A DNA stretch of 64,000 nucleotides, taken from Lysobacteraceae bacterium CU05-9 (GTDB lineage: Bacteria > Pseudomonadota > Gammaproteobacteria > Xanthomonadales > Xanthomonadaceae). How positions within the stretch are numbered: the first letter of the stretch is position 1; the number at the start of each line of letters is the position of its first letter. The notes under the pieces were generated by a model, which saw only the letters and a list, made by a program, of their open reading frames with translations, was not told where the DNA came from and ran no database searches. Made by a program: the position numbers and the translations under genes. The DNA lies in contig SWJS01000001.1 of the NCBI GenBank assembly GCA_007556525.1, positions 526,346 to 590,345 of the forward strand, written 5' to 3'. Positions 13,266 through 36,477 of the stretch are shown here, one piece after another.

Positions 13266-14666
13266 ATGACAGTTCTCAGTGTCGCCCAGGCCCTTGCCGG
13301 TGATGTAGCGGCAGGCGGTGAAGTTACGGTCCGGGGTTGGGTGCGTACGCGCCGCGACTCGAAGAATGGATTGAGCTTCATTAATGTCAGCGACGGTTCC
13401 TGCTTCGCCCCAATCCAAGTCGTCGCCACCGGCGATCTCGCCAACTACGAATCCGAAGTGCGCAAGCTCTCCGCCGGTTGCGGCGTGATTGCCACCGGCA
13501 CCATCGTGCCATCGCAAGGCGCCGGTCAGGCGTTCGAAATTCAAGCTACCAACATTGAAGTGGTTGGCTGGGTTGAAGATCCCGAAACGTATCCGATTCA
13601 ACCGAAGGCGCACTCCGTCGAGTTCCTCCGTGAAGTCGCGCACTTGCGTCCGCGCACGAACTTGTTCGGTGCCGTGACGCGTATCCGTGACTGCCTGTCG
13701 AAGGCGGTGCACCGTTACTTCCACGAAAATGGTTACCTCTGGATCTCCACGCCGATCATCACGACGTCCGATGCGGAAGGTGCGGGTCAGATGTTCCGCG
13801 TCTCCACGTTGGAGATGGCGAACGCCCCTCGCCTGCCGGATGGGAAGATTGATTTCTCGAAGGATTTTTTTGGGAAGGAAACCTTCCTGACCGTGTCGGG
13901 TCAGTTGAACGTCGAAGCGTATGCGTTGTCGCTGAGCAAGGTCTATACGTTCGGTCCAACTTTCCGCGCAGAGAACTCGCACACCACGCGCCACTTGGCG
14001 GAGTTCTGGATGGTGGAGCCGGAGATTGCTTTTGCCGATTTGAATGACTTGGCGAACGTCTCCGAAGATTTCCTGAAGTATTTGTTTAAAGCCGTGCTCG
14101 ATGAGCGCGCCGATGACATGGCGTTCATCGCGGAGCGTGTCGAGAAGGATGCGGTTGCGCGTCTGGAGCGTTTCATCAACTCGCCGTTTGAGCGCATTGA
14201 GTACACGGATGCGATTGAAATTCTCCAGAAGTCCGGCCACAAATTCGACTTCCCGGTTGAATGGGGTCTGGACCTGCAAACCGAACACGAGCGTTGGCTC
14301 ACCGAACAGCACGTCGGCCGTCCAGTTGTCGTGTTGAATTATCCGGAGCACATCAAGGCGTTTTACATGCGCATGAATGATGATGGTAAGACGGTGGCGG
14401 CGATGGACGTTCTCGCACCGGGCATTGGTGAGATCATCGGCGGTTCGCAGCGTGAAGAGCGTTTGGACCGTTTGGATGAGCGGATGCTGCAGTTCGGGCT
14501 GGACCTGGATCATTACGGTTGGTACCGCGACTTCCGTCGTTATGGCACCGTGCCGCATGGTGGCTTTGGCCTGGGCTTTGAGCGATTGGTTGTTTACGTC
14601 TGTGGTTTGGCGAACATCCGTGATTCGATCCCCTATCCTCGTGCGCCGGGTTCGGCTGCGTTTTAA
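13266..14666 (+). CDS. asnS: Asparaginyl-tRNA synthetase
   Basis: Class IIb synthetase that charges tRNA-Asn. The 466 residues hold an N-terminal OB-fold anticodon-binding domain (about 1-110) and the class II catalytic core: motif 2 near [21 protein letters not shown] and motif 3 near [17 protein letters not shown] at the C-terminus. AAGGA precedes the ATG. The presence of AsnRS means tRNA-Asn is charged directly with free asparagine, which matters for the Asn-codon leader in front of asnB at 36.3 kb. Confidence 0.97.
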
Positions 14667-34532: not shown

Positions 34533-36227
34533 TTAGGCAACCGCATTTTCGTGAACGTCCTTGACCGCCCTGCCCGATGGATCCGCCATGTTAGCGAAGG
34601 CTTCGTCCCATTTCAGCGCCGCTTCCGTTGAACATGCGATGGATTTGCCGCCCGGTACTGTTTTCGCGGCGCCGTCCGTTGGAAATGCTTGTTCGAACAA
34701 TTCACGGTAAAAATACGCTTCTTTGGTTGTGGGCGTGTTGTGCGGGTAGCGTTGCTCGGCAGCCGCCATTTGCTCGTCGGTGATCATCAGATCCGCATGA
34801 TCCTTGAGTCCATCGATCCAGCCGTAGCCAACGCCGTCGCTGAACTGTTCTTTTTGGCGCCACAAAATGCTGTCCGGCAGAACGCCTTGGAACGCTTCCC
34901 TCAAGATGGATTTCTCGATGCGTTTGCGTCCTTCGGCATCGACGCCGGACATTTTCAGCTTTGCATCCATGCGCATTGCAACGTCGATGAATTCAACGTC
35001 CAAAAACGGCACGCGCGCTTCGACACCCCACGCCATCATCGATTTGTTCGCACGCAAGCAGTCAAACAGATGCAGGTTGTCGAGTTTGCGGATCAGCTCT
35101 TCGTGAAATTCACGTGCGCTCGGTGCCTTGTGGAAATAAAGATATCCGCCAAAAATTTCATCGCTCCCCTCACCCGACAGCACCATTTTTATTCCCATTG
35201 CTTTGATGCGACGTGCCAGCAGGAACATTGGTGTGGATGCGCGGATCGTCGTCACGTCATACGTTTCGATGTGCTTGATCACATCCGGCAAGACATCCAA
35301 CCCTTCTTCAAACGAGTAAGTAAATCCGTGATGCACCGTACCCAATGCATCCGCGGCAACTTGCGCAGCTTCGAGATCCGGCGATCCTTGCAGTCCGATG
35401 GCGAAGGAATGGAGACGTGGCCACCAGGCTTCTTTTTGGTCGTCGTCTTCAATGCGTTGACGTGCGAATTTCGCGGCGCATGCAGCGACAAGTGATGAGT
35501 CCAACCCGCCGGAAAGTAGCACGCCGTAAGGAACGTCGCTCATCAGTTGGCGATGTACTGCGCGTTCGAATGCTTCACGTAATTGTTGTGCTTCAACTTC
35601 CACGCCTTCGACGTGGTCGTACTCGCGCCATTCGCGTTCGTAGTAACGAGTGAGTTCGCCGGTGGTGGAGTCGTAGAAATGTCCAGGCGGAAATGGTGCA
35701 ACGTCATCGCAGACGCGAACGATCGCCTTCATTTCCGATGCGACCCAGATGCGTCCTTCCTTGTCATGCCCCCAATACAGTGGACAGATACCCATGTGGT
35801 CGCGGGCGATGAGGAAGGATTTTTGGTCACGGTCCCATTGCGCGAATGCGAACATGCCGTTGATTTGGCTCAGCCATTCTTTCGGTGATTGGCCATCGCG
35901 CGCGAGTGCGTTGATGACTTCGCAATCCGAACCGGTCTGGAAATCATAGGGTTTGCTGAGTGTGCGTTCGAGGTCGCGATGGTTGTAGATTTCGCCATTG
36001 ACTCCGAGAACGAGTTGTTGGTCCTGCGACAAAATCGGTTGCGAGCCACCCGCCGGATCGACAATCGCGAGGCGTTCGTGCACGAGGATTGCGTTCGGGT
36101 CTGCGACGACGCCGCTCCAGTCGGGACCGCGATGACGTTGTTGCGCGGACATGGAGAGAGCAAGCGGACGCAGCATACGGATATCTGCGTCGCTGCGTAA
36201 ATCAAAGGTGCCGAGGATGGCGCACAT
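34533..36227 (-). CDS. asnB: Glutamine-hydrolysing asparagine synthetase B
   Basis: Makes asparagine from aspartate, ATP and glutamine. The 564-residue product starts MCAILGTFD: removal of Met exposes Cys as the N-terminal glutaminase nucleophile, which fixes the start at 36227 (the ORF extends 13 codons further upstream). The glutaminase domain has RHRGPDWSG and NGEIYNH; the synthetase domain has the ATP pyrophosphatase loop LLSGGLDSSLVAA near residue 240 and VLSGEGSDEIFGGY. AAGGAACG precedes the ATG. A 167-nt upstream region has an Asn-rich leader ORF, competing hairpins and a terminator, so expression is probably controlled by attenuation. Confidence 0.96.
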   Translation of the reverse strand: MCAILGTFDLRSDADIRMLRPLALSMSAQQRHRGPDWSGVVADPNAILVHERLAIVDPAGGSQPILSQDQQLVLGVNGEIYNHRDLERTLSKPYDFQTGSDCEVINALARDGQSPKEWLSQINGMFAFAQWDRDQKSFLIARDHMGICPLYWGHDKEGRIWVASEMKAIVRVCDDVAPFPPGHFYDSTTGELTRYYEREWREYDHVEGVEVEAQQLREAFERAVHRQLMSDVPYGVLLSGGLDSSLVAACAAKFARQRIEDDDQKEAWWPRLHSFAIGLQGSPDLEAAQVAADALGTVHHGFTYSFEEGLDVLPDVIKHIETYDVTTIRASTPMFLLARRIKAMGIKMVLSGEGSDEIFGGYLYFHKAPSAREFHEELIRKLDNLHLFDCLRANKSMMAWGVEARVPFLDVEFIDVAMRMDAKLKMSGVDAEGRKRIEKSILREAFQGVLPDSILWRQKEQFSDGVGYGWIDGLKDHADLMITDEQMAAAEQRYPHNTPTTKEAYFYRELFEQAFPTDGAAKTVPGGKSIACSTEAALKWDEAFANMADPSGRAVKDVHENAVA

Positions 36228-36252: not shown

Positions 36253-36280
36253 AAAAAAACCCGCACTGGTTAAATGCGGG
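36253..36280 (-). terminator. Attenuator terminator in the asnB leader
   Basis: On the minus strand CCCGCA (36275-36280) pairs with TGCGGG (36260-36265) across a 9-nt loop and is followed by seven T residues (36253-36259). It lies after the leader ORF and 26 nt before the asnB start, so it would stop transcription before the gene. Its 5' arm can instead pair with GCGGGC (36342-36347) inside the leader ORF. Confidence 0.85.
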
Positions 36281-36310
36281 CTGGAGTTCTTGCGATGGTT
36301 GTTGAGGTTG

Positions 36311-36394
36311 TTACATTTCAGTTCGCAACATCAATCCATCGGCCCGCGGGAGGTCGATCGAATTATTATTGTTGCGATTGAAGTAAAAGCTCAT
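36311..36394 (-). CDS. Asn-rich leader peptide of asnB
   Basis: A 27-codon ORF (ATG 36392-36394, stop TAA 36311-36313) begins MSFYFNRNNNNSIDLP and ends LMLRTEM. Five of codons 6-11 are Asn (AAT/AAC). TCGCAAC inside those codons (36371-36377) can pair with GTTGCGA (36323-36329). That element can alternatively use TTGCGA (36323-36328) to pair with TCGCAA downstream (36290-36295). GCGGGC in codons 16-18 can pair with GCCCGC at the base of the terminator. This is the layout of amino acid operon attenuators: stalling at Asn codons frees the antiterminator. A caveat is that no good ribosome binding site is visible. Confidence 0.65.
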   Translation of the reverse strand: MSFYFNRNNNNSIDLPRADGLMLRTEM

Positions 36395-36419
36395 GGATTG
36401 AGGGTTGCATATCTTTTTG

Positions 36420-36428
36420 GTTATGGCA
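36420..36428 (-). promoter_or_regulatory. Possible extended -10 promoter of the asnB leader
   Basis: TGCCATAAC on the minus strand has the extended -10 form (TG, one base, CATAAC) and resembles the rpsF promoter element. It would start RNA near 36413, about 19 nt before the leader ORF. Confidence 0.3.
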
Positions 36429-36477
36429 AGCGTTTCTGATCTCGGGCGCTGCGCGCGTTAAGTGAGCTGCGGTTTGG

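Follow-up and report, generated by a model that had tools for sequence, protein, structure and literature searches.

Our results indicate that a ribosome-mediated transcription attenuator sensing charged tRNA-Asn very probably controls asnB, the asparagine synthetase gene of Lysobacteraceae bacterium CU05-9. In the window, by which we mean the whole 64,000-nt stretch of DNA that was analysed (contig SWJS01000001.1, positions 526,346-590,345; assembly GCA_007556525.1), the gene is preceded by clustered Asn codons, by a terminator, and by a candidate antiterminator that has the terminator's 5' arm in common with it. Judging by matched changes among relatives, the leader probably switches asnB on when asparagine is low. 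The features concerned are as follows.

34533..36227, (-) strand: asnB, the putative regulated gene, encoding a glutamine-hydrolysing asparagine synthetase of 564 aa (start ATG at 36227).
36311..36394, (-) strand: probably leaderless leader-peptide ORF of 27 codons, of which codons 6 and 8-11 specify Asn (from the sequence and the leaders of relatives).
36253..36282, (-) strand: intrinsic terminator, a stem-loop at 36282-36258 (10 pairs) and then a T7 run to 36253 (terminator prediction).
36342..36347, (-) strand: segment 2, GCGGGC, the putative 5' strand of the antiterminator, in codons 16-18 (pairs with segment 3, with compensatory changes).
36276..36281, (-) strand: segment 3, GCCCGC, common to the putative antiterminator and the terminator 5' arm (from the sequence and pairing in relatives).
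36336..36341, (-) strand: CGATGG, predicted to form the 5' side of an inner antiterminator helix with CCATCG at 36298-36293 (folding).

The initial annotation of this DNA had described a 27-codon ORF with Asn at codons 6 and 8-11 ahead of asnB, and this was borne out by the sequence and by the match of the downstream protein to the NCBIfam model for asparagine synthase B (859 bits vs a cut-off of 499). The peptide encoded by 36394-36311 on the (-) strand is MSFYFNRNNNNSIDLPRADGLMLRTEM (27 aa). The clear intrinsic terminator with T7 that had been placed between the ORF and asnB is present at 36282-36258 on the (-) strand, and so are all of the segments from which the switch had been built, namely GCGGGC (36347-36342), GCCCGC (36281-36276), TCGCAAC (36377-36371), GTTGCGA (36329-36323), and TCGCAA (36295-36290). 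The leader RNA folds better than its own shuffles (z -3.25), and the putative protector hairpin 1:2, TCGCAAC:GTTGCGA, is present in the window's minimum-energy fold. The window contains the Asn pattern AAYNNNAAYAAYAAYAAY a single time, and 0/100 shuffles contain it. By themselves, runs of four Asn codons show no genome-wide enrichment: counted in any frame across the 2.35-Mb genome, AAYAAYAAYAAY matches 6 times (two of these overlap) and the control pattern read backward likewise 6 times, and AAYAAYAAY is not enriched in the window either (2 seen vs 2.97 expected). Among the 4 other genome sites with four Asn codons, judged by reading frame only, none is a second clear leader. Because the Asn run alone is not enriched, the case for an attenuator leans on conservation.

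The comparison of upstream regions among relatives that the initial annotation had suggested was therefore central, and it found the Asn cluster conserved and the GCGGGC:GCCCGC pairing kept with compensatory changes, the opposite of the outcome that had been named there as refuting. An asnB match was present in 279 of 297 same-family genomes and absent from 18. From the better-matching asnB genes, drawn from the same family plus named species, came 123 distinct upstream regions (130 loci minus 7 identical over the last 250 bases), close relatives remaining among them. Three loci that are not Lysobacterales (L040, L059, L065) were dropped before the counts; the Asn ORF is absent from them, though the AsnB of L059, a 'Holophagales' MAG, is 73% identical. 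In 120/123 regions, an Asn cluster lies in a short ORF with a terminator-like hairpin downstream of it; one of these is a weak case lacking the promoter spacing described below (L100). The three misses comprise L110, which has no leader, and L111 and L121, where leader and terminator-like hairpin are visible farther upstream, so that counting these two brings the total to 122/123. Three or more Asn within nine codons are seen in 120/123 regions vs 20/615 dinucleotide shuffles and 0/123 reverse strands. The choice of ORF included a bonus for TTG at 33-37 nt; the Asn score alone selects the same ORF in 123/123. L110, L111, and L121 stand outside the start-anchored column counts, and these and L100 outside the folding, covariation, codon, and geometry sets (n=119).

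The genera with a leader include Xanthomonas, Stenotrophomonas, Pseudoxanthomonas, Lysobacter, Luteimonas, Thermomonas, Arenimonas, Dyella, Rhodanobacter, and Fulvimonas, and typical leader peptides are MSFQRANNNRNNASPPRVGD, ...NNNNRNNASLPRAGD, ...NRNNLRANNRARPMRVCD, and ...NNNNRANNNANRWRARA. Asn accounts for 18.3% of codons in the leaders vs 1.6% in asnB. Across 22 leaders of the same type, AAC/AAT exchange is the sole variation at three of the Asn positions, two are fixed, and a sixth is Asn in 16/22, which is a coding signature. Over the 119 loci, AAT makes up 338/742 of leader Asn codons vs 104/745 in asnB, and it is possible that AAT was chosen in the leaders as a slower regulatory codon. 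In L197 and L198, the sequences upstream of L111 and L121 (all of one genus), extra sequence separates the attenuator's terminator from asnB, and the leader starts ~460 and ~540 nt before the gene. Sampling was extended by 20 further genomes, hand-picked for divergent or unsampled genera and in some cases repeating earlier loci. The leader is present in 12/20, all of which encode an AsnB sharing 66% identity or more with that of the window; one of the 12, L217, lacks the promoter spacing. The other 8/20, whose AsnB is 62-64% identical, have none. Since these divergent members are without it, the attenuator is confined to part of the family. Among members that lack the element (L110, L218-L220, L224), several have a TGACAGAATCGG- or TGATAGCATCGG-like promoter-like sequence near asnB.

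For the initial annotation, the weak point of the leader was that it has no ribosome binding site. The absence itself stands, in that no Shine-Dalgarno sequence is visible in the window, but it has a likely explanation in promoter-like elements that lie at a fixed distance from the leader start:

36424..36429, (-) strand: -35-like element TTGCCA, 35 nt upstream of the leader ATG (from the sequence and relatives).
36401..36406, (-) strand: position homologous to the -10 element, AACCCT, a poor match that keeps A at -11 and T at -7 (start-anchored column counts).

TTGC is found 35-37 nt before the leader start in 113/123 regions vs 3/358 other starts in the same regions. Where the spacing is 35 nt (n=52), A stands at -11 in 46/52 and T at -7 in 50/52, and the bases between vary more; where it is 36 nt (n=55), the corresponding counts are 36/55 and 35/55. 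The -10-like element ends ~6 nt upstream of the leader start. These kept A and T columns look like a -10 element and not like a Shine-Dalgarno sequence, the common form CAGGAT being readable as either. A scan of the window for the sigma-70 consensus found no promoter before the leader. An alternative -10 in the window, TATGCA at 36411-36406, would likewise keep the 5' UTR down to a few nt. The fixed spacing of the promoter-like elements thus suggests that the transcript starts at or next to the leader ATG, and that the leader ORF is probably leaderless.

The strongest evidence for an antiterminator is a compensatory change in the pairing of segments 2 and 3. In most relatives, the leader's last codons repeat part of the terminator 3' arm and so can pair with the 5' arm. 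Leaders ending in P[RQ][AV] make up 49/119, and within them the RNA partner follows the amino acid: the R leaders (PRA/PRV, GCGGG) face CCCGC in segment 3 in 38/38 cases, and the Q leaders (PQA, GCAGG) face CCTGC in 11/11, with further Q/CCTGC cases found later in L111, L121, and L212. Over all 119, the varying pair is G-C in 107, A-T in 11, and other in 1 (Fisher p 1e-15, leaving out the one other), counts that are to be read with many of the 123 regions being close relatives. The terminator 3' arm, mostly unchanged overall, retains its G in 10/11 Q cases; hence the change tracks the 2:3 pairing, and the terminator is left with a G-U pair. Own partners score 10.60 in pairing, vs 9.50 for 300 partner swaps (sd 0.09, largest 9.81). 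On a tree of 85 AsnB proteins, R/Q changes 5 times in the leader and C/T 6 times in segment 3; on well-supported branches, no more than 2 R/Q pairs count as independent, and these two, which point the same way, are too few for a sign test. Other versions of the 2:3 pairing are ATGCGGGT:ACCCGCAT in Xanthomonas and relatives and GGCGGGCC:GGCCCGCC in Rhodanobacter. The GCGGGC:GCCCGC pairing, which the initial annotation had put forward as the alternative to the terminator, is supported by these compensatory changes, and the covarying 2:3 helix is, on this comparative evidence, the antiterminator of a ribosome-mediated attenuator.

These patterns also bear on the reading in which an ordinary terminator, such as one ending the transcription of upstream tRNA genes, follows an Asn-rich ORF that arose by chance in an A+T-richer leader. 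Short ORFs are common, genes for tRNA-Glu and tRNA-Ala lie upstream on the same strand, and both the consensus promoter scan and the genome-wide count of four-Asn runs were negative, as that reading would have it. However, the tRNA genes have their own terminator at 36654-36627, and relatives share the Asn cluster as well as the promoter spacing and the 2:3 covariation. Chance and a tRNA-gene terminator, together extremely unlikely, were rejected on this conservation and on that separate terminator.

Under the attenuator reading, the transcript would begin at the leader ATG or a few bases from it, and a ribosome would load on the leaderless message and translate the Asn codons as the polymerase proceeds. 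When charged tRNA-Asn is short, the ribosome would stall at these codons, and segment 2 (GCGGGC), left free, would pair with segment 3 (GCCCGC) while segment 4 is still to be synthesized; no terminator would then form and asnB would be transcribed. When Asn-tRNA is plentiful, the ribosome would pass segment 2 towards the stop codon, segments 3 and 4 would pair, and transcription would stop before asnB. Sequence comparison supplied the Asn cluster kept in frame, the constant distance from promoter to start, the terminator, and the 2:3 helix with its covariation; from these we infer that a leaderless message is translated, that the ribosome stalls on it, and that read-through into asnB responds to asparagine. 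The initial proposal of an attenuator at asnB is thereby upheld as far as the conserved Asn cluster, the terminator, and the covarying helix go, with translation and the asparagine response as the predicted parts.

The geometry of the leaders is consistent with this sequence of events. Counted from the first nucleotide of the final Asn codon, segment 2 begins 17 nt downstream in the window; the corresponding distance, taken from the last codon of the Asn cluster, is at least 12 nt in 115/119 loci. The end of segment 2 lies at most 18 nt from the stop codon in 105/119. The leader in the window is without the stop codon that usually lies directly 3' of segment 2 (in relatives, ...LPRAGD and then the stop) and runs on for nine codons past segment 2's last codon (36341-36311). 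Its stop codon is 28 nt from segment 2, vs a median of 7 nt, and for this reason segment 2 would stay uncovered by a ribosome at the window's stop. Securing good termination under plentiful asparagine is a task that the TCGCAAC:GTTGCGA hairpin of the minimum-energy fold could take over in the window.

Folding gives a more mixed picture. Before segment 4 is present, the best-paired base of segment 3 in the window is bound upstream with a probability of 1.0 when the ribosome is stalled on the last Asn codon, vs 0.35 once it has reached the stop codon; the value for free RNA is 0.58. Among relatives (n=119), this stage of folding separates the stalled, free, and finished states poorly, a base of segment 3 being paired upstream with P >0.5 in 119/119 stalled, 94% of free, and 72% of at-stop RNAs, and upstream pairing of segment 3 exceeds that of all 20 shuffles in just 36/119. 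Full-length equilibrium folding goes back to the terminator in every ribosome state; with a stalled ribosome, the median P(3:4) is 0.96 (n=119), and the window's is 0.90. Because the complete RNA prefers the terminator at equilibrium, the model needs co-transcriptional kinetics. A race of ribosome against polymerase is supposed for leader-peptide attenuators in the passages of PMC1183508. Between segments 2 and 3, single-sequence folding yields a z of -3.06 in the window and a mean z of -1.47 in relatives, with 80/119 below -1 and none above +1. The inner helix predicted there in the window, CGATGG:CCATCG, competes with the TTGCGA:TCGCAA pairing of the initial annotation. RNAalifold, applied to 45 leaders ending in P[RQ][AV][GD][DR], recovered only the 6-pair outer helix and no inner one.

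The distant stop codon is one reason to consider that the attenuator is real in relatives and degenerate here, leaving a leaky constitutive terminator or a weak response. Its 28 nt past segment 2 vs the median of 7 nt would fit such decay, as would the weak -10 (AACCCT) and the long branch (0.47) on which the window's AsnB sits; but the Asn run, the 2:3 complementarity, and the terminator are all intact in the window, and the inner stretch folds better than shuffles, with the z of -3.06 given above. We consider decay unlikely. A second possibility is a translational switch, in which stalling exposes the asnB ribosome binding site or translation of the leader aids re-initiation, and leader genes have been proposed to act via re-initiation in the passages of PMC4833913. 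Yet a terminator with a T run stands between leader and asnB, and its 5' arm covaries with segment 2, which makes this switch highly improbable; exposure of the asnB start is not general, given that the leader lies ~460 and ~540 nt upstream in two genomes. Control by translation only was rejected on the intervening terminator and its covarying 5' arm.

Leader-peptide attenuators are textbook material for several amino acids. Like those of trp, his, thr, leu, ilv, and phe, the asnB element combines a leader ORF carrying codons for the product, alternative hairpins, and a terminator; unlike them, its amino acid is asparagine, no Rfam leader family (e.g., Trp_leader, Thr_leader) matches above threshold, and the leader has no ribosome binding site, its start probably being the transcript 5' end. 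Asparagine genes of Firmicutes are controlled by T-boxes, with which the asnB leader has in common the input, the charging of tRNA-Asn, and the kind of target. Unlike the asnB leader, a T-box works without a leader peptide, by direct binding of the tRNA, and none was found here. A T-box or metabolite riboswitch in place of a leader peptide would have the Firmicutes precedent in its favour, but neither needs a coding Asn cluster, and at gathering score no Rfam family was found at the locus, at 12 relatives' loci, or at the Flavobacteriaceae loci L105 and L108 discussed below. We give such an element a virtually negligible probability, and it was rejected for want of a match at gathering score. 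A permissive threshold gave seven sub-threshold matches, the highest in bits being Trp_leader (19.1 vs 41).

The general attenuator model, as set out in the passages of PMC1183508, comprises a leader ORF, codons for the product amino acid, alternative hairpins, and a terminator before the first gene. A closer parallel is trpL of Sinorhizobium meliloti (rnTrpL/peTrpL), whose leader RNA starts with the ATG of the leader ORF and is leaderless according to the passages of PMC7298713. A leaderless attenuator leader is thus reported for trpL and predicted for asnB, with Asn instead of Trp and in another bacterial class. By analogy with S. meliloti trpL, the terminated leader RNA or the peptide could have further roles in trans. 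The initial annotation knew of no attenuator described for asparagine synthetase, and we too found no leader-peptide attenuator for asparagine in the searched open literature. Specifically, none appears in the passages of PMC2965389, PMC1183508, PMC8632094, PMC9723704, and PMC9026213, nor in the Xanthomonas small-RNA passages of PMC3771888, PMC7694677, and PMC3039613. In the text available of PMC2965389, a survey of premature terminators, 'asparagine' occurs 0 times, and one word begins with 'asn', with no whole-word match. An earlier prediction of an asparagine attenuator may exist in subscription papers or supplements. The asnB element would be one more example of the leader-peptide attenuator, a kind already known.

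Outside Lysobacterales, asnB upstream regions gave a different picture. Among 34 control regions (Vibrio, Shewanella, and others; L105 and L108 set apart, L094 left out), an ORF in which nine codons hold three or more Asn was found in 3, of which 0 have the promoter spacing. L094 has two Asn-containing GTG ORFs. Upstream of a Photobacterium asnB (L091), an Asn-rich ORF (MRDFNNQRKSRSNININHHNDNLLAT) occurs without the Lysobacterales promoter spacing, and is perhaps due to chance in A+T-rich DNA. Two Flavobacteriaceae asnB genes, L105 and L108 (proteins 84% identical), are preceded by ORFs with runs of 5 and 6 Asn. These ORFs (...NNNNNGTP and ...NNNNNNTMP) end 83-85 nt upstream of asnB (match start 3001) and are followed by a terminator, with AAACTTG past the stop codon able to pair with the terminator's 5' arm. 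In the passages of PMC9723704, strong clues are reported for leader-peptide attenuation before amino-acid operons of Flavobacterium psychrophilum, a report that the Asn-run leaders of the two Flavobacteriaceae asnB genes resemble; the main text of PMC9723704 has 0 occurrences of asparagine or asn. By eye, the Flavobacteriaceae leaders are unlike those of Lysobacterales, which for these two loci only points to a possibly independent origin. We tentatively raise the idea, which we hold to be somewhat less probable than its contrary, that Asn-sensing attenuation of asnB has been overlooked and arose at least twice, in Lysobacterales, where the leader would be leaderless with ribosome and polymerase starting at the same base, and separately in Flavobacteriaceae.

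Asparagine physiology offers a rationale for such a signal. One further gene is involved:

13284..14663, (+) strand: asnS, asparaginyl-tRNA synthetase, which would charge the tRNA read by the leader (TIGR00457, 641.8 bits; found at G000:C1:539629-541008 and converted to window coordinates).

asnS and asnB thus lie in the same window. The genome has one asnB; asnA was not found in it, nor was a full gatA, the GatA-like protein scoring 243 bits vs a cut-off of 481. Across 60 family genomes, gatB was found in 0/60 and asnS above cut-off in 58/60. With asnS present and asnA and gatB absent, Asn-tRNA should come from free asparagine, so that its level would be a sensible signal for asnB. Attenuation of asnB may be favoured where AsnB and AsnRS are the sole route to Asn-tRNA.

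For the family, conservation of the attenuator across Xanthomonas, Stenotrophomonas, Lysobacter, Dyella, Rhodanobacter, and relatives would make the regulation of asparagine synthesis predictable in a large group. The R-to-Q change in the peptide that matches the RNA pairing is a clear case of RNA structure constraining a peptide. Finally, a fixed distance between promoter and ATG in place of a ribosome binding site, if true, would be a good natural case of leaderless initiation coupled to attenuation.
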